Source: Ruminococcus sp.
Lineage (GTDB): Bacteria; Bacillota; Clostridia; Oscillospirales; Acutalibacteraceae
NCBI GenBank assembly: GCA_022510955.1
Contig: JAFLSM010000018.1
Coordinates: 1 to 43,005 of the forward strand
Direction: 5' to 3'
Length of the DNA: 43,005 bases
The position numbers were made by a program, and so were the translations under genes. The notes under the pieces are model-generated. The model was not told the origin of the DNA. It worked only from the letters and a program-made list of their open reading frames with translations, and made no database searches. Shown piece after piece: positions 5,025 to 22,334 of this stretch (position 1 is its first letter; each line of letters opens with the position of its first letter).

Positions 5025-5201
5025 ATGAAGGCAACCGGTATTGTAAGAAGGATTGACGACTTAGGAAGAGTTGTCATACCCAAGGAAATAAGACGAACTC
5101 TGCGTATTCGTGAGGGCGACCCGCTTCAGACAACATTGACACCGTGGCTCAGCTTCTGCAAAAATATGAGCAAGTTGAACGAAAGGCTGAGGCTTGGGTA
5201 G
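5025..5201 (+). pseudogene. spoVT: 5' part of spoVT, cut off by element insertion
   Basis: Codons 1-33 (5025-5123) encode the AbrB/SpoVT swapped-hairpin DNA-binding domain, opening MKATGIVRRIDDLGRVVIP and running to REGDP, essentially the Bacillus SpoVT N-terminus (recalled from memory). After the core GGCGACCCG (5115-5123) the reading frame enters element DNA, adds 25 unrelated residues and stops at 5201, giving a 58-residue product. GGGAG stands nine bases before the ATG. The missing 147 codons lie at 21891-22334 in a compatible frame. SpoVT is a late forespore regulator of sigma-G genes in Bacillus. As it stands, only the DNA-binding domain could be made; whether it acts alone is unknown. 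Confidence 0.92.
5115..5141 (+). other. attL junction (core plus right attP arm)
   Basis: The core GGCGACCCG (5115-5123) joins spoVT codons 31-33 to element DNA. The element-side arm AACATTGACA (5132-5141) is the exact reverse complement of TGTCAATGTT at attR. In the joined attP the 26 bases between the arms centre on the GA dinucleotide of the core (5118-5119), the expected symmetry for a large serine recombinase. Confidence 0.8.
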
Positions 5202-5259
5202 TACATAATGACGGAGGATTTTGAGATAGCGGTGTAAATCAGAGAAGGTAAACCTTTGA

Positions 5260-5314
5260 TTATGTCAAGTAAAATTTATTTTCACTTGACATAACTTTAT
5301 TGACCGAATATAAT
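5260..5314 (+). promoter_or_regulatory. Promoter and operator of the AbiE operon
   Basis: A consensus promoter, TTGACA (5286-5291), 17 bases, TATAAT (5309-5314), is overlapped by a perfect 11-bp inverted repeat, TTATGTCAAGT (5260-5270) and ACTTGACATAA (5284-5294), whose right arm contains the -35 box. A repressor bound here would block RNA polymerase. AbiEi antitoxins are known to repress their own promoter through inverted repeats, so AbiEi is the likely ligand. That assignment is inference. Confidence 0.75.
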
Positions 5315-5338
5315 AATAGTGAAAGGACGGTGAGAATT

Positions 5339-6034
5339 ATGAAAACAGTTTCACAGATTGGCAGTACATTACAAAAGCAACCCGAGTGTCTTTTAATGGC
5401 TTCGGATATATATAAAAAGAGCTTCAACAACACAATCAGCGAAGAAGCGTACTATCAAACGCTCACGCGTATGTGTAAGCAAAAGGAATTGATTAGATTA
5501 TCAAAAGGGATTTACTGTATTCCTCAAAAAACAAGATTCGGCATAGTTACACCATCCGAAAAAGAGATTATTAATTACTTTGTTGACAATGAGAATGGAG
5601 TTGTGCTCGGATACTCTCTGTACAATTCTATCGGTCTTACCACACAGGTATCGAAAACTGTTCATATTCTCTCCTCACGAATTGCTGACAAAAAAAGAAA
5701 TCTGAATAATATCTATGTTGAAAAGCTGAATATGGTATTTACTGCTAAAAGAAAATCGGTAATATGTATGTTAGATATACTTTATAATTTCAAGAACATA
5801 GAAGATTTGAATTACAAAGCTTTTTTAATCTACTGCAAACAATTCGCAAGTGAATATAATGAATTTGAAACAGAGTATGTTATTGAAAAGACCGGTTATC
5901 CGAAATGGACTATTGCTTTCCTGGCTGAGGTGTTGAACTTCTTTAAAGTCAATCATTCACTCAACCAGTACCTCTCGCCTCTTTCCAAATACAACATTCC
6001 TAATATGGAGGATATCTATGAATCTGCACACTAA
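5339..6034 (+). CDS. AbiEi-family antitoxin (transcriptional regulator)
   Basis: 231 residues. Antitoxin of a type IV toxin-antitoxin / abortive infection system. The N-terminal 60 or so residues look like a winged helix (VSQIGSTLQKQPECLLMASDIY ends the first helices, then YYQTLTRMCKQKELIRLSKG), the usual DNA-binding part; the rest resembles the AbiEi/DUF6088 group. ATG at 5339 is chosen over TTG at 5300 because the -10 box (5309-5314) lies downstream of 5300 and AAAGGACGG precedes 5339. The gene overlaps the toxin gene by 17 bases, so the two are translationally coupled. Likely autoregulated through the inverted repeat upstream. Family assignment rests on partner and pattern, not on a search. 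Confidence 0.75.
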   Translation: MKTVSQIGSTLQKQPECLLMASDIYKKSFNNTISEEAYYQTLTRMCKQKELIRLSKGIYCIPQKTRFGIVTPSEKEIINYFVDNENGVVLGYSLYNSIGLTTQVSKTVHILSSRIADKKRNLNNIYVEKLNMVFTAKRKSVICMLDILYNFKNIEDLNYKAFLIYCKQFASEYNEFETEYVIEKTGYPKWTIAFLAEVLNFFKVNHSLNQYLSPLSKYNIPNMEDIYESAH

Positions 6035-6953
6035 ACCTGAAGATTTCCATGCGTTGATACAGCTATCGGCAAGATATAAAAACATCCCAGAATCCGCCGT
6101 AGAACGCGACTATTTTATTGTAATGGCATTACAGCGCCTTGCAGAGAGCGAGTTAGGCGACGCGTGTGTTTTCAAAGGCGGAACCTCACTAAGTAAATGC
6201 TATCCAAACTCCATAGAACGCTTTTCTGAGGATATCGACTTAACCTTCTATCAAACCGAAGGCTTATCAGATAAACAAATCGAAAGAAAACTGAAAGCAG
6301 TCGAAAAAACAATGACAGAAGGTTTCCAAACTGAGCCTATCCTTGTAGAAAGGAACAAACGAAACAAAAGCACATACTTCTGGTATGACGATGAAAACAA
6401 TCGTGTAAAGTTAGAGATTGGTTCTTCCGTTCGACCCGAGCCTTTCAGCAAAAAGAGTTTGAAAATCTATATACAGGAATATCTTGAATCGCAACAACTT
6501 TTTGATGAAATCAGCAATTTTGAGTTAGTACCAGTAGAAATCAATACGCTGAATATTGAAAGAACTTTTATCGATAAAGTTATGTCTGTCAAACGCCATG
6601 CAATTTGCGGCACGCTTGATAAAAAAGTGCGACACATTTACGATGTCACCCGATTGTTTGAACTTGACGAGATTAAGCGGTTTCTTGATAACGGAGATGA
6701 AGTTAAGCGACTACTTCAGCTAACCAAAAACACAGATTCAGCCTATTTAGAAAAGAGAAACATTCCTAAAGAGTACAACCCTTTAGGGGCGTATAATTTT
6801 GATGCATGGCGTGACAGATTTGACACACGGATTAAAGATATTTATGAGCAGTTACACAAAAGTTTGCTCTATACAAACGAAAAACAAGATTTTAACAAAG
6901 CGGTATCTGCTTTTGAGAAAATCAATCAAAAGTTTATAGAGTCGGGGGAATAA
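6018..6953 (+). CDS. AbiEii/AbiGii-family nucleotidyltransferase toxin
   Basis: 311 residues. Toxin half of the AbiE system, a DNA polymerase beta-fold nucleotidyltransferase that blocks growth; some relatives modify tRNA 3' ends. The signature VFKGGTSLSKCYP (Gly54-Gly55-Thr56-Ser57) and RFSEDIDL (Asp72, Asp74, the metal-binding acidic pair) are intact, as is a downstream EIGSSVRPEP strand. GGAG stands seven bases before ATG 6018, inside the antitoxin gene. A strong terminator follows at 7049, closing a two-gene operon. On this element it could stabilise inheritance as well as block phage; that role is inferred. Confidence 0.85.
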   Translation: MNLHTKPEDFHALIQLSARYKNIPESAVERDYFIVMALQRLAESELGDACVFKGGTSLSKCYPNSIERFSEDIDLTFYQTEGLSDKQIERKLKAVEKTMTEGFQTEPILVERNKRNKSTYFWYDDENNRVKLEIGSSVRPEPFSKKSLKIYIQEYLESQQLFDEISNFELVPVEINTLNIERTFIDKVMSVKRHAICGTLDKKVRHIYDVTRLFELDEIKRFLDNGDEVKRLLQLTKNTDSAYLEKRNIPKEYNPLGAYNFDAWRDRFDTRIKDIYEQLHKSLLYTNEKQDFNKAVSAFEKINQKFIESGE

Positions 6954-7048
6954 TCAAAATCATCCGTTCAAGGTAGATATTTCATAGAGAAGTTTATAAG
7001 TGAAATCATGGTAGTTAAAACGTCTGCAAAATGGATTTTACGCAAAAT

Positions 7049-7087
7049 GAAGGATAAGGTAATTTTACCTTATCCTTCTGTTTTTTT
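7049..7087 (+). terminator. Terminator of the AbiE operon
   Basis: A perfect 14-bp stem (GAAGGATAAGGTAA, 7049-7062, with its reverse complement at 7065-7078) is followed by TGTTTTTTT. The stem also ends transcription weakly from the right. Confidence 0.9.
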
Positions 7088-7139
7088 CTTGTTAATGCAA
7101 ACTACAGCCTTTTTCCATAAATTCAAAAATATATTTTCA

Positions 7140-7740
7140 CTATTTCTCCTCCTCAAAAATGTAGAGATACAAATCTTCAAGGGTTGGTTTAACTGAAGTG
7201 CATTTATGGTTCTCTGGCAGATAATCACTTATCCTCACAGTGATTTTATCACCGCTGTGAACGAGGTTTGATACCCGATAGGTTGATTGAAAACGAGCTA
7301 AATCCTCTTTTTCAATCTCAATTTCAAAACCCTTATTCCTAATTTCATTTACGAGGTTCTGCGGTGTATCACATGATACAAGTCTGCCCTCTTTGAGCAA
7401 AAATTTTCTTTGCTATAAATTCGATATCCGACACAACATGGGTTGAAATAAGCACAATTCTATCGTCTGCAATCTCGCTGATAAAATTGCGTATACGGAT
7501 ATGCTTCTTCGAATCAAGTCCTGCCGTAGGCTCGTCAGGAATCAGGACTTCGGGATTATTTAAAAGAGCCTGCGCAATCAAACCGCGCTGTTTCAGCTCT
7601 CTCGAGAACGCTCCAAGCTTTTTATGCGCCGCCTAACTGAGATTTACCATTTCAAGCAAGGCGGTGATTTTTTCTTTTGATCGCACAGTTTTCTTAATAT
7701 CTCTCTTATATCTTTCTTCAACACTCCATATATTTTTCCT
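7140..7740 (-). pseudogene. Decayed ABC transporter ATP-binding subunit
   Basis: Reading leftward from about 7740, the opposite strand gives the middle and end of an ABC ATPase: a helical-domain segment (ITALLEMVNLS), an in-frame TAG, then GAFSRELKQRGLIAQALLNNP (degenerate signature helix), Walker B with D-loop LIPDEPTAGLD, H-loop ISTHVVSDIEF, and after a frameshift near 7400 the tail LKEGRLVSCDTPQNLVNEI to the stop at 7140. The Walker A half is missing. Family resemblance is to two-component drug or bacteriocin-type exporters. It has at least one nonsense codon, one frameshift and a 5' truncation, so it is not functional. Confidence 0.8.
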
Positions 7741-7809
7741 TCTGAACTTAAGCGCAAATACGATACTATTCTCAATCACACAGAATTATACGAATACAAG
7801 CACGGCAAG

Positions 7810-8244
7810 ATGTTAATGCACTTAAAGTTTTGTTTTGGGAGTATCCCCAATGAACTAACCCCTACGGCAATGCTTAGATACTACCGACAACGCAAAAGAT
7901 TAACTACACAGCAGTTAGCCGAGAGTGCTGGAATTGTCCATGCCACACTTTTAATGTACGAGCGTGAACAGTTTCCGATACCATATCAAACTGCGGTAGC
8001 ATTTGCAGATATTCTTGAAATTGATAGAAATTTGCTTTTTGATGACTTTGCTCAATTTATGGATTATTCCTACAACTACAAGTTGCGAGAAGTAAGGAAA
8101 ACATACGGATTAAATCAAGCAGTTTTCGCTGAAAAAGCAGGCATAAGTTGGAGTATCTACTCTAAATGGGAAGGTGGATCACAACAGTCATCAAGAAAAA
8201 TATATCAGCAATTGATAGCAACATATCCCGAAATAAATATATAA
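7810..8244 (+). CDS. Protein with two helix-turn-helix (XRE-like) modules
   Basis: 144 residues as called. Two XRE-like modules follow each other: residues about 20-72 (MLRYYRQRKRLTTQQLAESA, then TLLMYER) and about 90-140 (LREVRKTYGLNQAVFAEKAG, then SIYSKWEGG). A regulator of element genes is likely. The start is uncertain: there is no clear ribosome site before 7810, and the same frame is open back to 7681 with protein-like sequence (HTELYEYKHGK), so the gene may be a 3' remnant of a longer one abutting the ABC relic. A terminator follows at once. Confidence 0.55.
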   Translation: MLMHLKFCFGSIPNELTPTAMLRYYRQRKRLTTQQLAESAGIVHATLLMYEREQFPIPYQTAVAFADILEIDRNLLFDDFAQFMDYSYNYKLREVRKTYGLNQAVFAEKAGISWSIYSKWEGGSQQSSRKIYQQLIATYPEINI

Positions 8245-8287
8245 AAATACAGCGTATCTGCTATAAAAACGGCTACGCTGTATTTTT
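8243..8287. terminator. Bidirectional terminator
   Basis: AAAAATACAGCGTA (8243-8256) and its exact reverse complement (8274-8287) form a 14-bp stem with A- and U-runs at its two ends, so it can work in both directions. It overlaps the stop of the two-HTH gene. Confidence 0.85.
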
Positions 8288-8359
8288 AATTGGCACATTG
8301 GTGTTATTGCCCGTTTTTCTGTAAAATAAAAGCACACTAAAACACAGGAGAAAAACACT

Positions 8360-8734
8360 ATGGAAAAATCATTATTTGAACAAATGGGTGGTACTTATAC
8401 GCAAATTGGAGATTGTCTGCTACCAAATCTTATCTTACCCGAACAACAAGATCAACCAATCGGAGTATGGGGACAGCGACACGCAATATATTTGAAACAA
8501 CACCATAAAATTATTTATATGAACCTGTTGACAAGTGAGAAACTAAACGACTATCTTGTCGATATTGAAAATCAGGCTGAAAATATGTTTCTTCAACTCG
8601 TAAAACAACTGATGGGAAGCGAAAATATAACAGAAGAACTTAAGGCAAAAGATCAGATGGAATGGGTTGCGCAAATGAACAATGTTTGCATCAGAGCAAG
8701 AGAAATTGTAAATTCTAAATTGATTTTTATATAG
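8360..8734 (+). CDS. tnpV: TnpV-family transposon-associated protein
   Basis: 124 residues. Matches the TnpV family of small proteins carried by clostridial transposons: FEQMGGTYTQIGDCLLPNL, then IGVWGQRHAIYLKQH, then LLTSEKLNDYLVDIENQAE and a C-terminal QMEWVAQMNN. The biochemical role of TnpV is not established. AGGAG lies nine bases before ATG 8360, and hairpins bound it on both sides, so it is a single-gene unit. It marks the region as built from transposon pieces. Confidence 0.8.
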   Translation: MEKSLFEQMGGTYTQIGDCLLPNLILPEQQDQPIGVWGQRHAIYLKQHHKIIYMNLLTSEKLNDYLVDIENQAENMFLQLVKQLMGSENITEELKAKDQMEWVAQMNNVCIRAREIVNSKLIFI

Positions 8735-8739
8735 TTAAC

Positions 8740-8775: not shown

Positions 8776-11700
8776 TTATACTAAGCCAAAATATTTTTCA
8801 AAAAAGTCTTTTAACTTATCAATAACAGTTTGTTTTTTTAAAGCCCTATTTGAACCACCTGAAAATCTTGAAATTGGAGGTAATATTTTATCAAGATCTG
8901 TTCCTGTGGTTTTTATCCCACCGTCTCTGAATGAGTTTTCTATAAATTTTTGAGCTTCATCGTGTTTAAGTTTTTCATCTTTGATGATTATTTCCAAGTC
9001 CTGCTTTTTTTGCTTTTTGACAAATTCTTTCCAGTCCTTTTCAACATCTGTTTTTATTGTCATTTGGGCAACAAATCCCTCGATTAAGGCTTTTTTACTG
9101 CGCAACTCAACACTTGCATCTATTGATTTTTTAATATTAGCAAGAATTGTTTTATCCTCACAGTTTGATTCATGGTATTTGGCGACAAGCATCAAGATAT
9201 AATCTATATTGACCTCGATCTGCTTAATAAGTTCGATTTCAAAGACAATATCATCGTTAATCCGTTCTTTTTCAATGTCACTTTTTTTAGTGTAATCTTG
9301 ATATAAATCAATATAAATGCTTTGGTAATCCTGTAAATCTCTAACGGATACAGCATTATCGCTTTCAAAATCGTCAAAACATCTTAAAATATTTCTTAAT
9401 TTTAAAATGCGACCAAACAGTTTAATAAATTCTTTTTCGTTATCCTCACCAACGATTTGACTGCTTATCGGAAATTCATTCACAAGTCTGGTTACAAGCT
9501 CGCTATAACCTTCAATATGTTTTCCGTTATCATCTTCATAGCCATTCATATATTCATTGTAAGTTTTTAGGATAACCATACCTCTTGCGTTTTTGTCTCC
9601 AAAAAGCGCTAAGGCGTTATTAGTAGCAATCTCAAGATTTCTAAAACAAACAATGTTTCCAAATGTTTTAACTGAGTTCAAAATACGATTGGTACGGGAA
9701 AACGCTTGTATCAAACCATGATCTTTTAAATTCTTATCTACCCACAAGGTATTGAGTGTAGCTGCGTCAAATCCTGTTAAAAACATATTGACTACGATCA
9801 ACAAATCAATCTCACGATTTTTCATTCGTAATGAAACATCTTTATAATAGTTAGGAAATTTATCAGCAGATGTATCATAGCTAACATTAAACATCCTATT
9901 ATAATCATCAATGGCACTGTCAAGAAAATCTCGTGAAGTCTGATCAAGACCGCTTGTGTCGAAATTCTCGTCTTGTAAGATATCATCCGGATCTTCTTCG
10001 TTTGGATTGAAACTGAATATTGTGGCAATATTTAATTTATGACCGGTTTCCTCCATTTGTTTTTTAAATTCATTGTAATATGCAATCGCTGCCGGAATAG
10101 ATGCGACTGCAAAAATCGAATTAAAACCATTTACTTTTGCAGTTGTTTTTTGCTCTGATACAGTGTTATTCTTGGACTTCGCCATTTTTTCTACATTCGT
10201 AATCACTTTATGGTCATAATAAGAACGACTTTGATTGCGATAAGTTTTTTGCTCAAAATGTTCAAGAATATATTGTGTAATCTCAGATACCCTTTTAGGA
10301 TCAATCAAAGCTTTTTCACGGTCAATTGCCTTTACTTGCTTGTCGTATAAAAGCTCAGGGTTTTTAATCGTGTTGATGTAATCGATTCTAAAAGGCAGTA
10401 CATTTCCATCGTGGATAGCATCTACAATGGTGTATGCGTGCAGAGGTCTTACTTTGTTTCCGTTTTCATCCGGTTCACCGCCGAAAACCTGTGCTGTGGT
10501 ACGCATATTCGGAGCATTGGAACTGTTCGAGTTTATTGCGAAAATAGGAGTGCCTGTAAAACCGAAAATATGATAATTTTTAAAGTGCTTTGTAATTGAC
10601 TTGTGCATATCTCCAAACTGAGAACGGTGGCATTCATCGAAAATCATAACAATATGTTTATTATAAACTTCATGTTCTTTGTTCTTGGATATGAATTTAT
10701 CTAACTTTTGAATGGTTGTGATGATGATTCTTGCATTATCATCTTCCATTTGTTTTTGCAGAATTTTAGTAGAGGTGTTGCTGTTAGCGGCACCTTTTTC
10801 AAATCTGTCGTATTCTTTCATTGTCTGATAGTCAAGATCTTTTCTATCTACAACAAACAATACTTTATCAATAAATTTCAATCCTTGAGCAAGCTGTGCG
10901 GTTTTAAAGCTGGTTAAAGTCTTGCCGCTTCCGGTTGTATGCCAAATATAACCGCCCGCATCTTTTCTGCCGGTTTTTTTGAGATTGGTAGAAACGATAA
11001 TGCGGTTTAGAATTTTTTCAGTTGCTGCAATTTGATAAGGACGCATTACCAATAATAAATTCTCTGAAGTAAACACACAGTAACGAGTCAAAATATTAAG
11101 CAGGGTATGTTTTGCAAAAAAGGTTTTTGTGAAATCCACAAGGTCTGGGATGGTGCGATTTTTCTCATCCGCCCAATAACTTGTGAATTCAAAACTATTG
11201 GAAGTTTTTTTCTTTTTGGCGGCGTCTTTCTCTGCATTGTCTTTGATATGCTGAAATCTTGTTGTGTTAGAATAATACCTTGTATGTGTACCGTTGGAAA
11301 TTACAAATAACTGTACATACTGATACAATCCGCTGCCAGCCCAAAAACTGTCACGCTGATATCGATTGATTTGATTAAACGCTTCTCGAATCGCATTGCC
11401 TCGTTTTTTTAGTTCAATATGCACTAACGGCAATCCGTTTACCAAAATTGTCACATCATAACGAGTATCATGCTTTCCGCCGTTTTCTTCATACTGATTT
11501 ATTACCTGCAAATGATTATTATGGATATTTGATTTGTCTATCAGCTTGACGTTTTTTACATAACCGTTATCAATGGTAAGGTTTTGCAGATAATCTTCCT
11601 GTATTTTGCGGGTTTTCTCTACAATGCCATCATTTCCGTTTGAAATAACACCGTTATAAAAGTCGTTCCACTCTTTATCAAAAAAGGTGTAGTTATTCAA

Positions 11701-11907
11701 TTTTTCAAGCTGAGCACGAAGATTGTCAATTAAGTCCTGTTTGCTTTTTATAGTAATGTATTCATAGCCCTGACTAACAAGGCGATTTATAAAATCCTGT
11801 TCAAGCGTCGCTTCGCTTTGATAGTCGGTGCTTTTTCTTTTTTCGGGTGTGTACTCAGCCACCACTGTACTTTCTGTAGAGCTTGCCACGATTTCAAAGC
11901 TATTCAT
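8776..11907 (-). CDS. hsdR: Type I restriction enzyme, R (endonuclease/translocase) subunit
   Basis: 1043 residues, full length for HsdR. It translocates DNA using ATP and cuts unmodified DNA in complex with HsdM and HsdS. The N-terminal PD-(D/E)xK nuclease shows Asp151 and Glu165-x-Lys167 ([20 protein letters not shown]). The superfamily 2 motor shows Walker A TTGSGKT (324-330), Walker B DECH (424-427), motif III GFTGTP (449-454) and motif [12 protein letters not shown] helical HsdS/M-docking region follows. ATG 11907 has AAAGGAGG nine bases upstream and overlaps the hsdS stop by eight bases (ATGAATAG). All key residues are intact, so it should be active. Last gene of the operon. Confidence 0.96.
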
Positions 11908-13153
11908 TTTCCGGTGCCTCCTTTTTCTTAAAAGTTAAGACTTTATCTCGATAATATTCATATTGTTTTTGCCGTGCTTCAATTTCGGCAGACAAGCACT
12001 CACTGATATCGTTGCAAAGTTGATTGAAACGATAAAGAATATCAACAATACGTTGTTGCTCCGCAAGAGATTTATCCTGGTCTTCTGGATATGGAATTGG
12101 AATAGTTAATTTTTCAAAATCAGTTTTGTTAAATTTACTTTGCCCCATATTCGAAGTAACCTTTTTTAAATTTCTTTGAAAATCAGAAGACTCGAATATA
12201 TATTTTAAATATAACAAATTAACCTTGCTGCTATGAATTAACAAGGCATTTTTAGCAAGAGCATTATATTTATAAGGTAGCTTTTTCGGATCGATATAAT
12301 ATACTTCTCCGCAATTTCCTACACTCGGCAAAACAATACAAGGCTCATTTAATTGAACTCTCCATAAATAATTATAAGAATGTTTTGATATATAGATAGG
12401 AGATTCATGTGTATAATTACACTTTATGTCAACCGTTCTAATAAGTTGTGCGTAATCTGGTTTTGATAAATAAGGGACATTTTTAGCAACTTCGGCAAAA
12501 GAACCTGCTGCAGCAAAATTAGTTATTTTATCACAAACCCCTTTTACCGGATGCAATTCACTATGTTTAATCGAATTCAAAACATTATCTCTATAATACT
12601 CATACTGCTGTTTTCTCGTGGTAAGTTCAGTAGTGAGTTCAGCAGTAAGTTCAGCAGTGAGTTCTGCAAATTCGTCTAATATACGGGCAATCTCTTCTTG
12701 TACTGGTAAGGGAGGAAGAGGAATTTTAAATTTTGAATATTTTTCGATCCACTGACGAGTATGATCCACCGGAATATATTGAATGTTTGTCATTACATGA
12801 TATAAATATCTAAAATCCGCATCATGAGGACTATCTTTTTTTAACCTTAACATCTTCATTGCAGAAGATTTTACTTTAAAATTAAAGCTAACCCAATGAA
12901 AAGAAGTGGTAAAATCATCAAAAATTATAACTGGATTCCCTTGCGATGCTTCATATATACCTGTACTCTCATTAGTATACCCTAAAATAAAAGATTGCCC
13001 TGCCGTTAAAACCGGAATCTTAAAATCATCATTATATTTAGTATCTTTTACAATATATTTGGTGGGCTGTTCATAATCTATAACTGTATATAAAAAGTCA
13101 AATTCAACACCATCAGGACAAAATTCATTGATAAGCTGTTCTAATTTACTCAT
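11900..13153 (-). CDS. hsdS: Type I restriction-modification specificity subunit
   Basis: 417 residues from ATG 13153 (AGGAGG eight bases upstream; the in-frame GTG at 13162 overlaps that site and is rejected). HsdS sets the bipartite DNA target. It has two target-recognition domains, about residues 1-145 and 195-370, each followed by a conserved helix: [17 protein letters not shown] with the central spacer, and [13 protein letters not shown] near the end. The central spacer holds four TAEL-like tetrapeptides (residues about 163-178) encoded by four 12-bp repeats, as in the EcoR124 family, where repeat number alters the gap between the two half-targets. The gene overlaps both neighbours by eight bases. 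Confidence 0.93.
12621..12668 (-). repeat. Four 12-bp tandem repeats in the hsdS spacer
   Basis: Units at 12621, 12633, 12645 and 12657 differ from each other at one to three bases; on the forward strand each reads GTRAGTTCWGYA-like. They encode (A/T)ELT four times. Because 12 is a multiple of three, gain or loss of a unit keeps the frame and would only change spacer length. Confidence 0.9.
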
Positions 13154-13946
13154 TTTCCTCACCTCCTGTGCTCCACCCTAAAGTCCCGATAGCTTCCATT
13201 AGCTCTCGATTGGTTTTAATTTTTTCTAATACACCTGTAACTAAACGATAAAAAGCATTAAATTTTAATAGAGCTTCTTTTTCGCTACAACGACCGTGCA
13301 CTACGCCACTTAATTCTCTAAAAAGTCTGTAACCATTATTGGAAAACTCCTCAGGGATTATATTGCGTTTTTCATTAACTTCTTTAAGATATCTTTCTGT
13401 TGATTTATGTTGTGTTTTCCCGTTTTTATCAACAAAAGTATCTAATATGTTTTCGGTTGTTCCTACTTGTTTAATAACTGATTCAAAAACTGATCTCAAG
13501 TATACAACAGAACCTGCTCCAAACCCCTCTCTTGAAGCTCTTTTGGACTTTTCAAGAAACTCTGTAAAATCTCCGTATTCACTGTTGATAAGTGCAACAT
13601 TTTCTGAAAACTTTTCCGTTCTTTTCAGTATTCGTATTTCAGGTGCAGCAAGAGTAATATCGTTTTTGCTTTCAACCAAGAACCATACCCGAACCGTGGT
13701 TCCGCAATTACAAGATAAAATACCATCAATGCTAATTAAAGTTTTACTTTCAAAAATGCAACTTATTTTACCTACCGAGTAAAATGTACGGATATCATCA
13801 CAAATTCTACAATAATAGTTCAGTGCAATATTGCAGTTCAACAGTTTTTCTTGTTGTCCTATTTTTCCCTTTTTATTAACTAAGAAACCCTCTACTTGTT
13901 TGTATTCATCAATTGGAGGCTTGGAAAGTATGTCACCTAACGTCAT
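13146..13946 (-). CDS. Unknown protein inside the hsd operon (possible zinc ribbon plus DUF4145-like part)
   Basis: 266 residues; I do not recognise it with certainty. An N-terminal third has Cys46-x-x-Cys49 (YYCRIC) and Cys79-x-Cys81 (LSCNCG) around beta-rich sequence, which suggests a zinc ribbon. Residues about 125-245 are helical, with [18 protein letters not shown] and [11 protein letters not shown], resembling DUF4145-type helical domains found fused to or beside restriction proteins. ATG 13946 overlaps the hsdM stop (ATGA) and its own stop overlaps the hsdS start by eight bases, so it is co-translated with the modification genes. It may be an accessory or regulatory partner. Not a standard type I subunit. 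Confidence 0.7.
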
Positions 13947-15592
13947 ATTTTCGCCTCCTTAATTGCAGCAATAATCGCATCAATTTCGGTACGCAATGTG
14001 TTTTCATGCTGAACAATCTGAGATATTTGCTCATTAAGAACAGATATATCAATAACTTCTCTTGTGTCCTCGCTTTCTACATAGGTTGATACGGAAAGAT
14101 TATAATTCGCTTTTTCAATATCTTCCTGTTTAACAAGTGCAATAAAGTGATCTATTGATTTTCTGCTCTTATAAGCGTTTAATATTTTTTTAATATTTTC
14201 CGGAGCTAATTTGTTGCTATTTGTAGCTTTGGCAAATTCTTTTGAAGCGTCAATAAACAAAGTGTTGTTATCTATTTTAGATTTTTTGAGCACCATAATA
14301 CAGGTTGCAATGCTTGTTCCATAAAATAGATTATCAGGTAGCTGGATAATACATTCAATGTAGTTGTTATCAATTAGATATTTTCTGATTTTTTGTTCTG
14401 ATCCGCCACGATACATAATACCGGGAAAGCAAACAATAGCTGCTGTTCCGTTTGTAGCAAGCCAATGCAAGCAATGCATAATAAACGCAAAATCTGCTTT
14501 TGATTTAGGAGCAAGCACACCTGCAGGAGAAAAACGCGGATCATTAATCAATGTTCCGTTATCAGAGCCTTCCCATTTAATAGAGTAGGGCGGATTTGAA
14601 ACGATAGCTTCGAAAGGTTCTTCGTCCCAATGTTTAGGATCAATTAAAGTATCGCCGTGTTCGATGCTGAATTTATCATAACCTATGTCATGCAGGAACA
14701 TATTTATACGACACAGATTATAAGTGGTAATGTTAATTTCCTGACCGAAAAAGCCATTTCGAACATTATCTCTACCAAGAATCTTTGCAAACTTCAAAAG
14801 TAATGAACCGCTACCCACAGCAGGATCATACACTTTATTGACTTCTGTTTTCATATTACCTTTGTTATCAAGAAGCGAAATGTTTGTAAGCAACTCGGAT
14901 ACCTCTTGTGGAGTGAAAAATTCACCACCGCTTTTGCCGGCATTGGAAGCATACATACTCATCAGATACTCATATGTATCGCCAAAAGCATCAATGGAAT
15001 TATCTTGATAATTACCAAGATCCATATCCCCAATAACTGTAATTAACCTTTTAAGTCGTTTGTTTCTCTTAATAACGGTTGGACCAAGCTTATTGCTGTT
15101 CACATCTATGTCGTCAAACAGTCCTTTAAAATTATCTTCACTCGGAGTGCCAATAGCTGACGCTTCAATATTTTTAAAGTTAGTCTGTAATATTTCATTT
15201 AAGTTTTCGTCCAATTCTGCGACTTCTACTTCTTTTCCGCCTTTTTCTGCTTTTTCTTTAGCGTATTTATCTGCTTTTTTAATTTTGTTTAATAAATTAC
15301 CAAACAACTCACTTGGCAGAATAAAGAATCCTTTCTCCTGTACCATATCATCTTTGATGCGTACTGCTATAGCATCATCAATTTCAGCATAATTAAATTC
15401 TTTATTTCCGGATTCCCACTCTCCTTCATTTATGTAATCCGTAATGTTTTCAGAAATGTATCTATAGAACAACATACCTAAAACATACTGTTTAAAATCC
15501 CAACCATCAACGCTACCTCTAAGTTCATTAGCAAGCGCCCATATTGTACGATAAAGTTCCGTTCTCTCTTGTTCTCTTTTATTATTACTCAT
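13943..15592 (-). CDS. hsdM: Type I restriction-modification N6-adenine methyltransferase subunit
   Basis: 549 residues from ATG 15592. HsdM methylates adenine in the target using S-adenosylmethionine and forms M2S with HsdS. After an N-terminal helical HsdM_N domain come motif I DPAVGSGSLLLKF (about 256-268) and catalytic NPPY (333-336). An upstream ATG at 15607 is possible, but GGAG is correctly placed for 15592, which also gives an eight-base overlap with the regulator stop (ATGAGTAA), the same arrangement as elsewhere in the operon. It overlaps the next gene by four bases. Confidence 0.95.
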   Translation of the reverse strand: MSNNKREQERTELYRTIWALANELRGSVDGWDFKQYVLGMLFYRYISENITDYINEGEWESGNKEFNYAEIDDAIAVRIKDDMVQEKGFFILPSELFGNLLNKIKKADKYAKEKAEKGGKEVEVAELDENLNEILQTNFKNIEASAIGTPSEDNFKGLFDDIDVNSNKLGPTVIKRNKRLKRLITVIGDMDLGNYQDNSIDAFGDTYEYLMSMYASNAGKSGGEFFTPQEVSELLTNISLLDNKGNMKTEVNKVYDPAVGSGSLLLKFAKILGRDNVRNGFFGQEINITTYNLCRINMFLHDIGYDKFSIEHGDTLIDPKHWDEEPFEAIVSNPPYSIKWEGSDNGTLINDPRFSPAGVLAPKSKADFAFIMHCLHWLATNGTAAIVCFPGIMYRGGSEQKIRKYLIDNNYIECIIQLPDNLFYGTSIATCIMVLKKSKIDNNTLFIDASKEFAKATNSNKLAPENIKKILNAYKSRKSIDHFIALVKQEDIEKANYNLSVSTYVESEDTREVIDISVLNEQISQIVQHENTLRTEIDAIIAAIKEAKI

Positions 15593-15938
15593 CTTTACAT
15601 TCTCCATTCTTTAATAATTTTTCGTAGTCTATACCATTTCGCAATTCTCTGCACAAATCTTTATTTTTTAGTGTTTGCGCAATATCAGCAGGCACTTCAT
15701 TTCGCTCTTGTGCAGCTAAATCAAAAAACAACGCTATTTGTTCAGGCTTGGGCTTTAATAACTGAAGCATTGCAAATTGTCTGTCAGGAGGAGGCGGATT
15801 GACTTTACCGCTTAAAATATCATAAAAGTAGGGCTTCTTTATGCCAAGTGCGGTGTAAAACTTGACATTTGATAAATCTGCCTCTTTTATCATTTGCGCA
15901 AGCAAATTGCAGAACTTCATAGGAGCATCAACAATCAA
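15585..15938 (-). CDS. HTH (XRE-like) regulator heading the hsd operon
   Basis: 117 residues from TTG 15938, with GGTGGTGAT about five bases upstream; ATG 15920 is an alternative without a ribosome site. Residues about 10-60 form a Cro/C1-type helix-turn-helix (AQMIKEADLSNVKFYTALG, then KPYFYDILSGK). First gene of the operon and overlapping hsdM, so it probably controls restriction-modification expression, and the palindrome in its own promoter is the obvious binding site. Controllers delay restriction after entry into a new host in other systems; here that is inference. Confidence 0.75.
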   Translation of the reverse strand: MIVDAPMKFCNLLAQMIKEADLSNVKFYTALGIKKPYFYDILSGKVNPPPPDRQFAMLQLLKPKPEQIALFFDLAAQERNEVPADIAQTLKNKDLCRELRNGIDYEKLLKNGECKDE

Positions 15939-16610: not shown

Positions 16611-16680
16611 TATCGCAATAATATTACTAAATCATGTATTTAATTACTGGTTTTGTCATTATAATACATGAGGCGTTATT

Positions 16681-16988: not shown

Positions 16989-16992
16989 ACTA

Positions 16993-17240: not shown

Positions 17241-18593
17241 CTAATTGTTTGGTATGTCCTTTCGCTTGCGGTTTGGGAAGTATGCCTCGTTCCATTCGAT
17301 GTATTCTTCGAGTGTAATTTTGCCGTTGGAGCAGTCATCACGCTTTGAAATTGCAGCGTACTTCCATTTCTTAAAATCAGGTTCCTTGATTTGATTGACT
17401 TTTACGCGCGCCCAATAGCGGCGGTAATACTTTCGATAGATTGGCAGGGTCTCGTTCTCTGCCATTTTTATTTTGTAATTTTCTTCGGCGGCGAGGTCGC
17501 GACAGGAACGCATTTCTCCGAAGTGAGTCCGATTGCAATACCGCGCATCATAGTTACCCTTGACGGTAAAATACTGTCCGCAACGTTCGCAACATTTCAG
17601 CTTGACATCGTACTCCATCAGTTTATTAAATTTTAACTCCAAAAACTCTGAAAGGCTCTCGCTACGATATCGGATAACAGGATTGTGGTTATAGTTATGA
17701 AAATACATTAATGTATTCGCATCAATGTCGTGCTCCTCTGCAAATTCAGCAAGCGCTAACGTATCATAATTCGTCGGTTCTTTTCTGTTCCCCGTTATCA
17801 ATCGCTGCTCTTGGTTAAACTGAACTAAAGTCGGCATTTTATTTATCTTTCGATAGAGATAATATCGTGCGGCAGGCGACATGTCCCCCAACACTTCAGG
17901 ATAAAAGTTTTTTTCAAAACAAAACTCCAATAAATACTGATACTCTTCCTGTAGTGTTTTCAGATACTTATAATAGTCAAACATAGCTTCTGACAAATCC
18001 GCATCCTGTTTGATAGACGGCGGAAACATTGCTGAAGCCGTTGAGCCAAACGCTAAGTGGTTTATTAATTTCTTATAGGTGCGATAAATAAGAAAACGAT
18101 TTATATTCTCCTGTATCTCACTTTCCACGTTGGATAATTCTATCTCATCAAATTTATATAATCTGCATCTGACTTCCTCATACAAAGAATCGAAATCGGC
18201 ATACACAAATTCAAATAATGCTTCGCCCAAGGGTAATGTGACGACACTTCCGCTGAGAGGATTGTTTTTCTGTTGCGGTTCGATATCGGGATGCTGATTG
18301 TAAAAAACTCGTTCAAATTCATCAATCTCTGTTGAGTCAATCGGAAATCGAATGTCATCTAAGAACTCTGAATTATTATCAACGCTATGCACCTGCAAAG
18401 ATTTCATCTGCTCCTCTGCTTCAATGCACAGCGCAACAAATTCATCATCAGCGGTTTTCATAAGTTGCGTTGTATTGTTCTCAGGATGGAACGAAGCATA
18501 GACCATACCATCATCAAACGCAACATTCTCTGTTCCAATTCTTTTCAACAGATATTCTTCATAGTCGGTTAATTTGTATTTTGATAAATCCAT
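17241..18593 (-). CDS. DUF6076-like element protein with Cys-rich C-terminal finger
   Basis: 450 residues from ATG 18593 (GAAGGTG just upstream; the TTG at 18641 lacks a ribosome site). It resembles the DUF6076 proteins of unknown function common on mobile elements of gut Clostridia; that name is from memory. The N-terminal 250 residues are acidic and helical. The C-terminal part has LKCCERCGQYFTVKGNYDARYC, a CxxC and Cys pattern of a zinc finger, followed by a basic RKYYRRYWARVKV stretch, so nucleic-acid binding is likely. It is divergent from the HTH gene at 18746, and both promoter regions carry TTGTACAA sites. No catalytic motif seen. Confidence 0.65.
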   Translation of the reverse strand: MDLSKYKLTDYEEYLLKRIGTENVAFDDGMVYASFHPENNTTQLMKTADDEFVALCIEAEEQMKSLQVHSVDNNSEFLDDIRFPIDSTEIDEFERVFYNQHPDIEPQQKNNPLSGSVVTLPLGEALFEFVYADFDSLYEEVRCRLYKFDEIELSNVESEIQENINRFLIYRTYKKLINHLAFGSTASAMFPPSIKQDADLSEAMFDYYKYLKTLQEEYQYLLEFCFEKNFYPEVLGDMSPAARYYLYRKINKMPTLVQFNQEQRLITGNRKEPTNYDTLALAEFAEEHDIDANTLMYFHNYNHNPVIRYRSESLSEFLELKFNKLMEYDVKLKCCERCGQYFTVKGNYDARYCNRTHFGEMRSCRDLAAEENYKIKMAENETLPIYRKYYRRYWARVKVNQIKEPDFKKWKYAAISKRDDCSNGKITLEEYIEWNEAYFPNRKRKDIPNN

Positions 18594-18608
18594 AAACGCA
18601 CCTTCATT

Positions 18609-18703
18609 TTGTACAATCCAAATTTCTTTATAAATCAACAATTCATCTAAGTCTAATTTATATTGTACAAATCTATTGTAAGTTTGTCAATCATCGCTAT
18701 AAT
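18609..18703. promoter_or_regulatory. Divergent control region with two TTGTACAA palindromes
   Basis: TTGTACAA occurs at 18609-18616, just ahead of the minus-strand gene, and at 18663-18670, just ahead of a plus-strand promoter TTGTAA (18676-18681), 16 bases, TATAAT (18698-18703). Two copies of an 8-bp palindrome 54 bases apart suggest one regulator controlling both genes. Confidence 0.5.
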
Positions 18704-18745
18704 AAAAATCAAGGACGTTCTAAGAAAAACAAAAGAGGTGCTAAA

Positions 18746-19045: not shown

Positions 19046-19412
19046 ATTACTATGTGTACTGTAAACTCTGCTTTACAAATAACTATACCCATAGAACTAT
19101 ATAGAGTTCCAACAGAACAAGAGAAAAGTACAGTTTAGAAATTTCAGAAAATCAGAGAATTTCGCTCGGTCGAAAAGAAAGCAGGAGAAAGCCCGACGCC
19201 TATTTGGGGCGCCGGACGAACCACAACAGCCGGCAATGCCGACTGTTAAGCCGTTTTTCGGGGTTTTGTTGTCTCAAAAAATAGGAGTCAATTATAAGGC
19301 TTAGCGCTTTTGACGGCGCTTTCATAGGAGATAAACCTAGAAAAAGCCAGCGTTCAAGCCAAAAACTAACAGCGCTTTGACTGACGTAATCGGAAAATCA
19401 GGGAGGTTTTGA
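19046..19412. other. 367-base non-coding, hairpin-rich region of the element
   Basis: GC-richer than its surroundings and without a supported gene. It has an imperfect hairpin CAGCCGGC-aat-GCCGACTG near 19229-19247, a GC-rich CCCGACGCC...GGCGCCGG stretch near 19189-19214, and AGCGC/GCGCT repeats near 19305-19375. A structured leader RNA for the next gene, a transfer or replication origin, or debris are all possible. I cannot choose. Confidence 0.35.
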
Positions 19413-19823
19413 ATGTATAACGAGGACAAAAAGGAACGATTCACTTTGTGGATGAATCACTCCACTTTCGATAAGGTCGAGAAGATTTATCGCGAAGATA
19501 ACTGCGAAAAGAAAAGTGAATTTATTGAAAAAGCGGTTAATTTTTACTGCGGATATTTGAATATGAACAAGAGCGAAGAATTTCTTTCTCCCGTTCTTAA
19601 TGATGTAATTAAAAAGCAATTTACTCAAAGCAATAAAAGAATCAGCAGACTGATTTTCAAATTGGCTGTTGAACTTGCTATCACAATGAATATTGTTGCT
19701 TTCAATCAGGGAGTAGATAAAGAAGTTCTCAAAACCTTGCGCGGTGAGTGCGTAAAGGAAGTTAAGAAAACGAACGACATCTTCACCTTTGATGACGCGG
19801 ACGATTGGCAGAAAGGATTGTGA
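19413..19823 (+). CDS. Ribbon-helix-helix-like small element protein
   Basis: 136 residues. The start RFTLWMNHSTFDKVEKIY followed by KKSEFIEKAVNFYCGYL has the beta-strand, helix, turn, helix (SEFIEKAV) pattern of Arc/MetJ ribbon-helix-helix DNA-binding proteins. The C-terminal part is helical and unassigned. GGGAGG lies six bases before ATG 19413. It heads a run of three genes ending in the recombinase (next gene 44 bases on), so it may control integration or excision, for example as a directionality factor. That role is inference. Confidence 0.6.
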   Translation: MYNEDKKERFTLWMNHSTFDKVEKIYREDNCEKKSEFIEKAVNFYCGYLNMNKSEEFLSPVLNDVIKKQFTQSNKRISRLIFKLAVELAITMNIVAFNQGVDKEVLKTLRGECVKEVKKTNDIFTFDDADDWQKGL

Positions 19824-19867
19824 TTAATTGAACAAGAAAAGTTAATAATAACCAGTGAGGTGATTTC

Positions 19868-20098
19868 TTGAGAATCGAGGTAAAGGAAAAGCCTTGCAAG
19901 ATGGTTTTGTTTTATCTGAACCACAAAGAAGCCGCCGACCAAAAACTGCGGCAATCTCTTAAAGAGAATGCGCGGATATGGAAAGAGCAGTCTTTTCTTT
20001 CTGTGGTGGTGGAATCGGGAGCAGATGATTTAGAGGACTCTCTATACTGCTTGATGAAGCAAAACCGCAAGGCTGTCGCTGAAAAGCTATCGGCGTAA
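19868..20098 (+). CDS. Small conserved-looking protein before the recombinase
   Basis: 76 residues from TTG 19868, with GAGGTGAT five bases upstream. I do not recognise a named family. The sequence opens with two beta-like strands (MRIEVKEKPCKMVLFYLNHK), then acidic and basic helices; there is no transmembrane segment or catalytic motif. Position 112 bases before the recombinase makes it a candidate recombination directionality factor or recombinase regulator. Some serine-recombinase modules carry such a small gene. Confidence 0.55.
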   Translation: MRIEVKEKPCKMVLFYLNHKEAADQKLRQSLKENARIWKEQSFLSVVVESGADDLEDSLYCLMKQNRKAVAEKLSA

Positions 20099-20172
20099 AT
20101 TCGAGTGCGACCGCGCTCGAATACATAAATTCTTTTACCAATTATTTCATCTGGCTATTATAAAAATCGTGT

Positions 20173-20180
20173 GATACAAT
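20173..20180 (+). promoter_or_regulatory. Possible sigma-E-like -10 box before the recombinase
   Basis: GATACAAT at 20173-20180 differs by one base from the sporulation sigma-E -10 consensus CATACAAT and lies 30 bases before the recombinase ATG. I find no good -35 for sigma-E or sigma-A, so this is weak. It is worth noting because the recombinases of skin elements in Bacillus are under sigma-E. Confidence 0.25.
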
Positions 20181-20210
20181 GTTGTCAACAAACATATCGG
20201 AGACGATAAT

Positions 20211-22334
20211 ATGACGGAAAAATTCTATATTGCGGCGTACTGCCGTATCTCAGTGGACGATGAACTGAATAAAGAAAACACCTCTATTGAAAACCAGAAA
20301 GCAATCATCGAGGACTATGTAAGACAAAACTTTCCTAACTCGGAGCTTGACTTCTACGAGGACAGGGACAAAAGCGGATACACCTTTGAGCAACGAGAAG
20401 GCTACCAAAAGCTAAGGCGCAAGCTGTTCAAAAATCAATACGACATTCTGATTATCAAAGACCTTTCAAGATTCTCCAGACGAAACGGTGCGGGCTTGGT
20501 AGAACTCGAAGCTTTGCGTGATGAAGGAATACGGATTATCGCAATCGGCGACGGAATTGACTATCCGACCAATGACGACTGGCTACGGATTCAAATCTAC
20601 TTCTTCATGAACGAAATGCCTGTCACCGACACCTCAAAAAAGGTGCGGAATGTTATCAAACGGCGACAGCAGGACGGCAAATGGATATGCTCTGTTCCCT
20701 ATGGCTATGTGATTACGAATAGCAAAACGATGGCATTTGAGGTGGAACATACTGAAGCGGTGGTCGTGCAAAAGGTGTATGAGTTGTACAATCAAGGCTG
20801 GGGATACAAGAAAATCGCTAACTACCTGACAGACCAACACATTCCCACACCGCGAATGAACGAGCGAGCAAGAAAGGAAGCGCGCGGCGAGGAGTGTCAC
20901 CTAAAAGCAAAGCCGCAGTGGAGTATTGCAACCATTCAAGGGATTTTGACAAACGACTTTTACATCGGTACACTCCGTCAGGGAAAATACACGCGCAAGA
21001 AAATCAACGGACAGGACATTAAAAAGGACGAGAGCGACCACATTGTATTTCTTAAAAACCACGAGCCGATTATCGACTACCGTGTGTTCGCAACCGCGCA
21101 AAATGCAATGAAGGAGCGAACCAAAAGCAACTATAGAGGTATCAAAAAATTCACCAACGCATACTCAGGCTTGATGGTCTGCGGCGACTGCGGAAGTCCG
21201 ATGTTCCCGATGAGCAGAAGCGATATGAAGGAAGCATACCGCTGCGGAGAGTATCACAAGCGCGGCACAAAAGCCTGCACAAGCCATCACATTCGCGTGG
21301 AAACTCTCGATGCAATTGTCAAGGAGTATCTCCGAATGGTGTGCGATACCTCTTCGGGAATGATTGATAAACTGCAACAAACCATCGCCGAGGAAGAAAG
21401 TCATATTCAATCAACCAACAATACGCTTGACCAATTGGAAGAAATGATTGCCGATACCAAAGCAGAGAAAAAGGCTCTCATACGGCAATGCGCACGAGAC
21501 ATTGCCCGAAAGCCAAATCAGGAAAACGATATTCAAGAAACCTATGACGAGCTGATTGCGGAGTGTGACGAACGGATTGAAGGACTTCAAAATCAAATCA
21601 AGATGACCTACGATAAACACAACACTGTAATTGAGGCCAACCGAACCGCAAAGCTTGCGATAGATCTTTTCAATGAAATACTGGACAAGGAGAAGTTAGA
21701 GAAAAACGACCTTGAACTGCTGATTGAGAAAATCTACATCTACGAGGATCACATTCACATTAAGCTAAAAAATGATATTGACAGTATTCTGAAAAGCGGT
21801 ACGGAAAAGCTCTCAACGGTTAAAACACAAGACCGTAAAAACGCACCCGATAAGGTATTTTCTGTCAATGTTATCAGTGACGGCGACCCGTTGGAAATTT
21901 ACACTGCAACCGACGGTGAGGTTATTTTTAAGAAATACTCGCCCGTTGGTGAACTTTCTGCCTTTGCAGGTCAATATGCAGATGTACTTGCACGCATAAG
22001 CGCATTGCCAACTTTGATTTGCGACAAAGATCATGTGGTAGCTGCCTCAGGTGTTTCTAAACGAGAGTTTCTGGAACGCAGAGTAAGCACTATTTTGGAA
22101 AGCTATATGGAAAACCGAAAAAGTTATGCCGCAACTCAGCAAAGTGCAAACAGTGTACAACCGATTGAGGGTGTAGAACACAGTGCCGCTGTAATTTATC
22201 CGATTATCGCATCAGGTGATGTTACGGGTGCAGTCGTTATGCTCAGCGGTGAGAGTATGAAAGTACCGTCAAACACTGAAATTAAGCTTGCACAGTCAGC
22301 AGCTGCATTCTTAGGCAAGCAAATGGAAGAATAA
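20211..22334 (+). CDS. Large serine recombinase fused in frame to the C-terminal part of SpoVT
   Basis: 707 residues. Residues 1-557 are a large serine recombinase: resolvase domain with Arg12 and catalytic Ser14 in YCRISVDDE, DLSRFSRR helix, recombinase domain (PYGYV onward), zinc ribbon VCGDCGSPMF...CGEYHKRGTKAC and a coiled coil at about 385-470. Residues 558-707 are SpoVT residues 31-180 because the frame crosses attR without a stop. In the excised circle the same frame would instead end with 25 residues from the left end (stop at 5201), giving a 585-residue enzyme. All catalytic residues look intact. ATG 20211 has GGAGACG upstream. It should catalyse both integration and, with a partner, excision. 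Confidence 0.93.
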   Translation: MTEKFYIAAYCRISVDDELNKENTSIENQKAIIEDYVRQNFPNSELDFYEDRDKSGYTFEQREGYQKLRRKLFKNQYDILIIKDLSRFSRRNGAGLVELEALRDEGIRIIAIGDGIDYPTNDDWLRIQIYFFMNEMPVTDTSKKVRNVIKRRQQDGKWICSVPYGYVITNSKTMAFEVEHTEAVVVQKVYELYNQGWGYKKIANYLTDQHIPTPRMNERARKEARGEECHLKAKPQWSIATIQGILTNDFYIGTLRQGKYTRKKINGQDIKKDESDHIVFLKNHEPIIDYRVFATAQNAMKERTKSNYRGIKKFTNAYSGLMVCGDCGSPMFPMSRSDMKEAYRCGEYHKRGTKACTSHHIRVETLDAIVKEYLRMVCDTSSGMIDKLQQTIAEEESHIQSTNNTLDQLEEMIADTKAEKKALIRQCARDIARKPNQENDIQETYDELIAECDERIEGLQNQIKMTYDKHNTVIEANRTAKLAIDLFNEILDKEKLEKNDLELLIEKIYIYEDHIHIKLKNDIDSILKSGTEKLSTVKTQDRKNAPDKVFSVNVISDGDPLEIYTATDGEVIFKKYSPVGELSAFAGQYADVLARISALPTLICDKDHVVAASGVSKREFLERRVSTILESYMENRKSYAATQQSANSVQPIEGVEHSAAVIYPIIASGDVTGAVVMLSGESMKVPSNTEIKLAQSAAAFLGKQMEE
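21863..21890 (+). other. attR junction (left attP arm plus core)
   Basis: TGTCAATGTT (21863-21872) is the exact reverse complement of the arm at 5132-5141. The core GGCGACCCG (21882-21890) repeats that at 5115-5123, after which spoVT homology resumes (TTGGAAATT encoding LEI). Nine and eight bases separate the arms from the core, so attP is symmetric about the core GA (21885-21886). Confidence 0.8.
21882..22334 (+). pseudogene. spoVT: 3' part of spoVT (GAF-like sensor domain)
   Basis: Codons 31-180 of spoVT. After GDPLEIYTATDGEVIFKKYSP, the end of the AbrB domain, comes the GAF-like domain (FAGQYADVLARISALPTLIC, AASGVSKREFLERR, VIYPIIASGDVTGAVVML) ending LGKQMEE, very like Bacillus SpoVT, 178 residues. 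It has no start of its own here and is only translated as the tail of the recombinase. Fused to codons 1-33 it gives a complete protein with no base lost. Without the N-terminal half it should not bind DNA. Confidence 0.92.

Follow-up and report, generated by a model that had tools for sequence, protein, structure and literature searches.

What becomes of a mobile element's recombinase gene, and of the sporulation gene that the element enters, when a single site cuts both? This question is raised by the spoVT locus in the window analysed here, by which we mean the whole stretch of 43,005 nucleotides (positions 1 to 43,005 of contig JAFLSM010000018.1, assembly GCA_022510955.1, Ruminococcus sp.). 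The draft genome of the host comprises 2.23 Mb and is 99% complete, and the whole window lies on one contig. We consider it likely that the element residing in this window cuts spoVT at codon 33 and its own recombinase gene at the same core, and that precise excision would probably restore both. At the level of sequence, this proposal is based on two chimeric reading frames, covarying halves of a palindromic attP, conservation of a stranded recombinase tail, recurrence of the arrangement and its transfer between hosts. The features concerned are:

5025 to 5123, plus strand: 5' part of spoVT, codons 1-33, ending in the attL core (from the sequence and from identity to the closest intact SpoVT)
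5115 to 5123, plus strand: attL core GGCGACCCG, exact 9-bp direct repeat of 21882-21890
5124 to 5140, plus strand: attP right arm, which ends AACATTGAC, inverted repeat with 21864-21880
5124 to 5198, plus strand: predicted recombinase tail (C-terminal, 25 codons), continuing the frame of SpoVT residues 1-33 and closed by the stop codon TAG at 5199-5201 (profile, codon conservation, predicted helix)
19868 to 20098, plus strand: small protein 5' of the recombinase, candidate directionality factor (conserved in the loci)
20172 to 20180, plus strand: extended -10 promoter-like element TG-A-TACAAT, 5' of the recombinase (motif count in the loci)
20211 to 22334, plus strand: recombinase-SpoVT chimera, 707 amino acids (single open reading frame, Pfam, AlphaFold model)
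21864 to 21880, plus strand: attP left arm GTCAATGTTATCAGTGA, within the recombinase reading frame (pattern, arm pairing)
21882 to 21890, plus strand: attR core GGCGACCCG, exact 9-bp direct repeat of 5115-5123
21882 to 22334, plus strand: 3' part of spoVT, codons 31-180 and the stop codon (sequence, Pfam)

A sequence-only reading of this DNA had proposed that spoVT is split into codons 1-33 and 31-180 with a shared core at both breaks, and that it can be restored exactly; we confirmed both proposals. The two copies of the core are identical, the neighbouring bases differ on both sides, and the core-to-core distance is 16,767 bp. When the flanks were joined in silico, 180 codons with no internal stop were obtained, as in skin-type elements, where precise joining restores the frame of an interrupted sporulation gene. 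Compared with 52 intact SpoVT proteins, the joined product is 88% identical to the closest (L127, L128, L129, L033), and all 33 of the 33 residues of its N-terminal part are identical to the closest intact SpoVT. The coordinates proposed for the 3' half were right; this half is, however, no separate fragment, but residues 558-707 of the recombinase open reading frame, in which the sole SpoVT_C match of the 99% complete genome resides. The genes flanking the split spoVT, which we take from their sequences to be nifS/nifU-like and flavodoxin-like, were found in none of 59 intact loci within the flanks available, and the empty-site comparison was therefore made with the spoVT gene alone.

At attR, the frame of the recombinase crosses the junction without a break and finishes as SpoVT. 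The chimera has the architecture of a large serine recombinase (LSR), with Resolvase (catalytic, residues 7-158), Recombinase (181-303) and zinc ribbon (318-375) domains recognized by Pfam and a coiled coil, and it ends in SpoVT_C (581-706). Its AlphaFold model (mean pLDDT 68, used for domain presence only) contains long helices at 363-433 and 435-491; the structural matches of the chimera are 9y66 and 9dxh, and its sequence matches the SPbeta integrase YokA. The SpoVT_C part of the model, which follows a linker of low confidence, matches 2w1t and 2w1r, in support of an intact domain.

At attL, the frame of SpoVT residues 1-33 runs on for about 25 residues before a stop. Read across the predicted attP, this tail is predicted to be the recombinase's own C-terminus, and attP would lie inside the recombinase gene because the stranded tail reads through it in this way; both ends of the element having been read, the att site appears to be one that splits the integrase. 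A tail profile, built on ten attL frames and searched against 43 named genomes and one IMG/VR record, was matched at 55 or more of its 58 positions by 31 rows from 30 of these 44 genomes or records. Among the 30 tail loci opened, 26 were parsed automatically and L184 was read individually, L187, L194 and L207 staying outside the tail analysis; one more row, G556:C59, corresponds to L213, which was read too. For codons 13-23 of 32 distinct tails, a set without G015 and the truncated G147 and with one duplicate merged, mean pairwise identity was 0.50 at the first codon position, 0.71 at the second and 0.39 at the third. The consensus is near TLTPWxRFCFAMLDLAKRxGW, and residue 23 is arginine in 31 of the 32, spelled by five arginine codons. 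This pattern, in codons that lie beyond the att arm, is one of selection at the protein level, and the stranded tail is, judged by its codons, clearly conserved and coding. A folded model of the attL chimera contains a helix at 41-54 (mean pLDDT 67, about 80 within the helix); the tail of G015 differs from the others. Thus, the sequence-only reading was correct yet incomplete, having overlooked the recombinase-SpoVT fusion and the stranded tail, in which the actual novelty consists.

The split is more than a chance repeat, each end of the element bearing one half of an inverted-repeat attP. Arms were paired by genome for the 35 elements of which both ends had been read; in five cases the two ends share one contig (the L103 arm was paired with the attL on its own contig). 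Left and right arms of the same element matched at 15.0 of 19 positions (range 11-17); the value is 5.2 when arms are shuffled and 13.8 when they come from different elements. In the window, 13 of the 19 scored positions pair. None of 20,000 re-pairings reached the observed total, and the same was true without near-duplicates and G015. Since own arms covary, the element ends behave as halves of one maintained site. In G012, for instance, the arms are GTCAATGTTATCAGTGA and TCACTGACAACATTGAC, centred on the GA of the core, and from this centre of symmetry we infer GA to be the crossover dinucleotide. As is usual for an LSR, the attP is short and palindromic, and its presumed crossover falls centrally within the core shared with attB.

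The arrangement recurs. Among 148 relatives, 18 carry the spoVT junction, as established from PF15714 frames, the left-arm pattern and reading of the loci; they span four genera and four families of the order. In 17 of them the junction is in frame (G000, G006, G012, G015, G017, G037, G040, G050, G053, G058, G069, G081, G085, G087, G117, G130 and G147), the upstream frame of G006 being open for only 115 codons and the contigs of G085 and G087 stopping inside the recombinase; in G070 a short deletion at the junction shifts the frame. The PF15714 profile matched in 125 of the 148 genomes, SpoVT_C occurred in frames longer than 700 amino acids in 14, the window genome included, and the left-arm pattern was present in 16. 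A class sample of 391 genomes added at least three more frames above 700 amino acids (G176, G208, G508). A contig scan of named genomes yielded at least 80 loci, classified by reading the junction; these genomes may overlap with the unnamed ones, and the counts are therefore kept apart. The 80 loci listed comprise 47 fused, 26 intact, two other (L120 and L122, the latter fused with a frameshifted SpoVT part) and five without the junction in the contig. Titles of the fused loci listed include Ruminococcus, Oscillospiraceae, Lachnospiraceae, Borkfalkia and soil Bacillota, and a fused locus (L117) is also present in the isolate Anaerotignum lactatifermentans DSM 14214. Intact sites are common, with these 26 loci and, counted separately, 27 intact genes read in relatives; the expectation of an unbroken spoVT in related strains was borne out. 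Decayed halves, which would have spoken against a restorable gene, were not what we found: the SpoVT part measures 145-154 residues, its full length, in 46 of the 47 fused loci listed, and 133 in L110. In a protein search, the best 120 of 8,000 matches all carry recombinase domains together with SpoVT_C, the first being the window's own, and those with an organism named belong to Ruminococcus sp. Where databases give such proteins a name, it is stage V sporulation protein T or recombinase family protein, and annotation thus conceals the case.

Three nearly complete genomes of the same genus (G046, G061, G084) have no SpoVT_C match and possess SpoIVA; their spoVT may be lost or broken at contig ends.

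Recombinases and their host domains have separate histories. L048 and L109 share 91% identity in the recombinase and 41% in SpoVT_C, and over 741 pairs the two identities correlate at 0.30. From these comparisons, the recombinases are clearly much closer kin than the SpoVT proteins of their hosts, and the element family enters each host's spoVT anew. For 11 carriers of the genus (55 pairs), the mean ratio of nonsynonymous to synonymous differences (pN/pS) was 0.19 in the catalytic domain, 0.31 in the recombinase domain, 0.38 in the zinc ribbon and coiled coil, 0.71 in the linker and 0.21 in SpoVT_C, which indicates purifying selection on both the recombinase and SpoVT_C; the latter is not decaying. 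Between G012 and G017, pS is 0.05-0.16 in the recombinase and 0.30 in SpoVT_C, and some insertions are therefore recent. A plasmid search gave no place covering 80% of the query, and a phage search gave one unannotated 9.2-kb faecal record that covers it at 50% identity.

A mechanism accommodating these observations would begin with integration exchanging the 3' ends of the recombinase gene and spoVT. The tailed native enzyme would be made only from the circle and would perform attP x attB integration into spoVT; the integrated enzyme, devoid of the tail and equipped with the SpoVT sensor domain, might have its activity or direction reset. Excision, probably with the small upstream protein as the directionality factor, would then rebuild spoVT and the native enzyme. 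Relatives of this small protein lie within 3 kb upstream of the recombinase in 41 of 48 loci parsed (out of 63 given): in 35 at 300 bp or less on the same strand, in four at 1.1-2.1 kb and in two on the opposite strand. A Pfam scan of two members returned no family match. Judged from the loci, the recombinase and, with that frequency, the small nearby protein are the invariant parts of the elements, and the cargo differs. An engineered fusion of a serine integrase with a recombination directionality factor (RDF) favours attL x attR (PMC5737554).

A bolder version of this mechanism, which we regard as rather improbable, is a reciprocal-exon switch. As a self-splitting integrase, it would be without precedent outside Archaea and among serine recombinases; integration would create an excisionase-like chimera with the GAF sensor of SpoVT, and excision would reset it. 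In its boldest form, both chimeras would re-associate: SpoVT(1-33)-tail, expressed from the spoVT promoter, would dock via the split AbrB fold onto recombinase-SpoVT(34-180), and the docking would return the tail in trans, tying excision to the switching on of spoVT. That the two pieces of SpoVT share a split AbrB fold is presumably so, and the idea of re-association starts from this assumption.

Several observations weigh against the proposal that the element splits and restores both genes. In P0123, P0124 and G050:C101, close kin of the recombinase continue from the same point of the core into unrelated sequence; P0123 represents 65 member sequences, which makes one of the secondary sites common. 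In L120, the same spoVT core serves a distinct serine recombinase (45% identity) without fusion, the gene ending about 170 bp before the attR junction (L208 belongs to the same genome); an unfused recombinase at the same attB indicates that the site does not force fusion. The consensus attP pattern was found in none of the stretches of IMG/VR and in none of 163 loci. A search of the 18 carrier genomes for attP with up to three mismatches, which could miss elements with diverged arms such as G015, gave nine matches, and each of these carried the spoVT side of attL. A tail-directed protein search gave 82 matches, none extending beyond 27 of 49 residues and all stopping at the junction; another search of this kind gave four candidates, none of which scored. 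Hence neither the native circular form nor excision was seen in the sequence data searched. Moreover, the in-frame junction may be one ancestral accident, kept for the open linker of the native tail, with the SpoVT_C fusion as a by-product, and the constraint on SpoVT_C may stem from its uninserted past.

The secondary sites deserve a remark of their own. At P0123, P0124 and L175 (G050:C101), the same recombinase family occupies sites other than spoVT and has acquired arbitrary C-terminal extensions. As far as the sequences tell, other targets are used, the gain of SpoVT_C is unnecessary for an insertion to persist, and loss of the tail is the shared feature.

A further layout was observed in L173 (G147:C15, minus strand), where spoVT 5' ends occur at 838 and 11354, separated by approximately 10.5 kb and differing in their att arms. 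The one at 838 is similar to the attL of L208, from the L120 genome, and the one at 11354 is of the tailed class. The arrangement suggests another class of element, possibly supplying a spoVT 5' end of its own, into which the tailed element has gone.

Two candidates were rejected. The L105 genome (G558) contains both fused and intact spoVT (L212/L217), which could have represented two states of one locus; over the 773 bp that both copies cover, however, identity is just 82%, so the L105/L217 bin consists of two organisms and does not speak for excision. Several drafts also have contigs that end close to the junction, for which ordinary explanations suffice.

How, then, would excision be governed? 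One possible, although doubtful, answer is a skin-like programme, in which the element is excised during sporulation to make SpoVT, as at sigK, spsM and gerE. The core repeat, the LSR at one end and the exact restoration agree with this. SpoIVA is encoded by 18 of 18 carriers, including the window genome. By the TIGR02850 profile for sigG, no genome exceeds the cut-off and all 148 give some match, that of the window genome being a sigG-like protein of 267 amino acids at 399 bits, below the family cut-off. A C. difficile spoVT mutant forms no heat-resistant spores (PMC3789822), spoVT deletion has a severe effect in B. cereus (PMC5061766), and the LSR of the C. difficile skin element is made in vegetative cells as well, gating being left to the RDF (PMC5025042). 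However, SpoIVA occurs in 140 of the 148 relatives; the hosts thus look spore-forming, yet carriers are not distinguished by it. In 450 bp before the recombinase of 45 regions, no clear enrichment of sporulation-sigma promoter patterns was detected (sigE 0, loose sigE 1 versus 0.7 expected, sigG 0, sigF 2 versus 0.4, sigK 0), and the joined form was not found in the data searched. In C. difficile, spoVT is under the control of sigma F and G in the forespore (PMC3789822), whereas known intervening elements reside almost all in mother-cell genes (PMC6957869); the mother-cell logic of skin is therefore not simply transferable. If SpoVT acts in the forespore here, one-way excision would strip the element from the spore and the germ line unless it were reinserted. 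In that case, there would be three possibilities: reinsertion following germination, poor sporulation of the carriers, or an excision unrelated to development. The developmental excision suggested in the sequence-only reading found no clear support in these data.

The promoter region has features of its own. The vegetative-like extended -10 motif TG.TA[CT]AAT is present in 29 of 45 regions upstream of the recombinase (shuffled mean 0.7). At 20172-20190 of the window, and at equivalent places elsewhere, the promoter-like TG.TACAATGTTGTC overlaps a sequence resembling an att half-site (CAATGTTGTC), whose best match over the promoter is 9.3 of 14 versus 8.2 for shuffled sequence (41 loci). This hints, with weak statistical support, that the recombinase might regulate itself by binding a half-site at its own promoter.

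A self-locking, or suicidal, insertion is a possible alternative, although we hold it doubtful. Here, loss of the tail would disable the recombinase, and spoVT would stay broken until a complete recombinase acts in trans. Such logic matches that of archaeal SSV-type integrases (PMC8371274); the absence of the native form from IMG/VR, carrier genomes and protein searches agrees with it, and integration at secondary sites likewise removes the tail. What it does not explain is the full-length SpoVT_C in all but one of the fused loci listed, damage being confined to L110, L122 and the junction of G070. Since the elements move between hosts, excision or another exit must exist, which speaks against a permanent lock.

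It is also conceivable, though unlikely, that fusion and tail are incidental, the element being a conventional island whose att site overlaps the 3' end of the recombinase gene and whose C-terminal changes are inconsequential. The linker is indeed the least constrained segment, extensions at the secondary sites are arbitrary, and L120 dispenses with fusion at the same site; but a dispensable end would not be expected to show the protein-level conservation that the tail retains beyond the att arm across many lineages. An assembly artefact or chance similarity is hardly credible: the genome is a draft and the element ends lie on different contigs in many relatives, but the arrangement recurs in many separate assemblies and an isolate type strain, the arms covary, and both ends share one contig at least in G000, G012, G015, G037 and L081.

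The reading in which one core splits and restores both genes combines two known kinds of system and adds a distinctive reciprocal exchange of protein ends. Sporulation intervening elements (skin in sigK, SPbeta in spsM, gin in gerE, yin in yabG) resemble it in having a recombinase, a short core and a gene restored by joining, and gin likewise has a core of 9 bp and is free of phage genes (PMC5595907, PMC10747680, PMC4191935). In contrast to them, the gene entered here is spoVT, whose product regulates the forespore in C. difficile, and the recombinase gene is itself split and fused to a host protein. Archaeal SSV-type integrases also carry attP inside the integrase gene and are split on integration; these self-splitting enzymes are tyrosine recombinases and were termed exclusively archaeal in 2021 (PMC8371274). 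In the present case, a serine recombinase of Clostridia (hosts titled Ruminococcus, Oscillospiraceae, Lachnospiraceae and Clostridia) gives up only a short tail, retains an intact catalytic part and acquires a domain from the host. In the integration-dependent immunity of mycobacteriophage BPs, attP lies in a control gene and integration alters the C-terminus and state of the protein (PMC4557955); there, a repressor loses a degradation tag, whereas here it is the recombinase whose conserved tail is replaced by a sensor domain of the host. When serine integrases are engineered as fusions with an RDF, the fused domain changes the direction of the reaction (PMC5737554); those are artificial, and such an effect of SpoVT_C is hypothetical. 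In the abstracts and passages of the open-access literature, we found neither a spoVT-splitting element nor a self-splitting serine integrase, and no open-access paper combining 'large serine recombinase' with SpoVT; two candidate cases proved on checking to be neither.

With this locus, spoVT joins the sporulation genes cut by mobile elements, contrary to the usual mother-cell rule. The findings point to an integrase that would edit its own C-terminus by integrating, which bears on the choice of direction by serine integrases and on natural pairs of enzyme forms. As the site recurs in gut and rumen Clostridia, with defence genes in one host, a polysaccharide cluster in a second and Cas9 in a third, it may shape spore formation and gene flow among them.

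A separate matter is the cargo. The presence of LSR domains, AbiEi/AbiEii and a type I restriction-modification system agrees with the suggestion, made from the sequence at the outset, of a recombinase-driven element with defence genes. The remaining features are:

5300 to 6034, plus strand: AbiEi-like antitoxin, cargo (PADLOC PDLC02251, E 1.2e-78)
6018 to 6953, plus strand: AbiEii toxin of a type IV toxin-antitoxin system, cargo (Pfam PF08843; PADLOC)
7810 to 8244, plus strand: helix-turn-helix protein (Pfam HTH_19/HTH_31)
8360 to 8734, plus strand: TnpV-family protein (Pfam PF14198, E 3.7e-43)
8776 to 11907, minus strand: HsdR, type I restriction subunit, cargo (Pfam, PADLOC)
11900 to 13162, minus strand: HsdS, specificity subunit, cargo (Pfam, PADLOC)
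13146 to 13946, minus strand: protein of 266 amino acids between hsdM and hsdS, overlapping both ends, without Pfam or PADLOC match
13943 to 15607, minus strand: HsdM, modification subunit, cargo (Pfam, PADLOC)
17241 to 18641, minus strand: DUF6076 protein (Pfam)

No phage structural or lysis genes were detected by the Pfam scan among the 16 open reading frames of the window element, which thus does not have the content of a prophage. Where both ends lie on one contig, elements measure roughly 12 kb (L081), approximately 17 kb (the window), 43 kb (G015), 56 kb (G012) and 87 kb (G037). The cargo of G012 (34 proteins scanned) includes Cas9, Cas1, RloB and a Spo0A_C protein, among the matches listed for 25 of 49 families. 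In G015 (36 proteins scanned), a polysaccharide biosynthesis cluster was found among the matches listed for 25 of 50 families. This cluster fills the 43-kb spoVT island (L042, L166, L167), which indicates that the site can carry a surface-polysaccharide locus.

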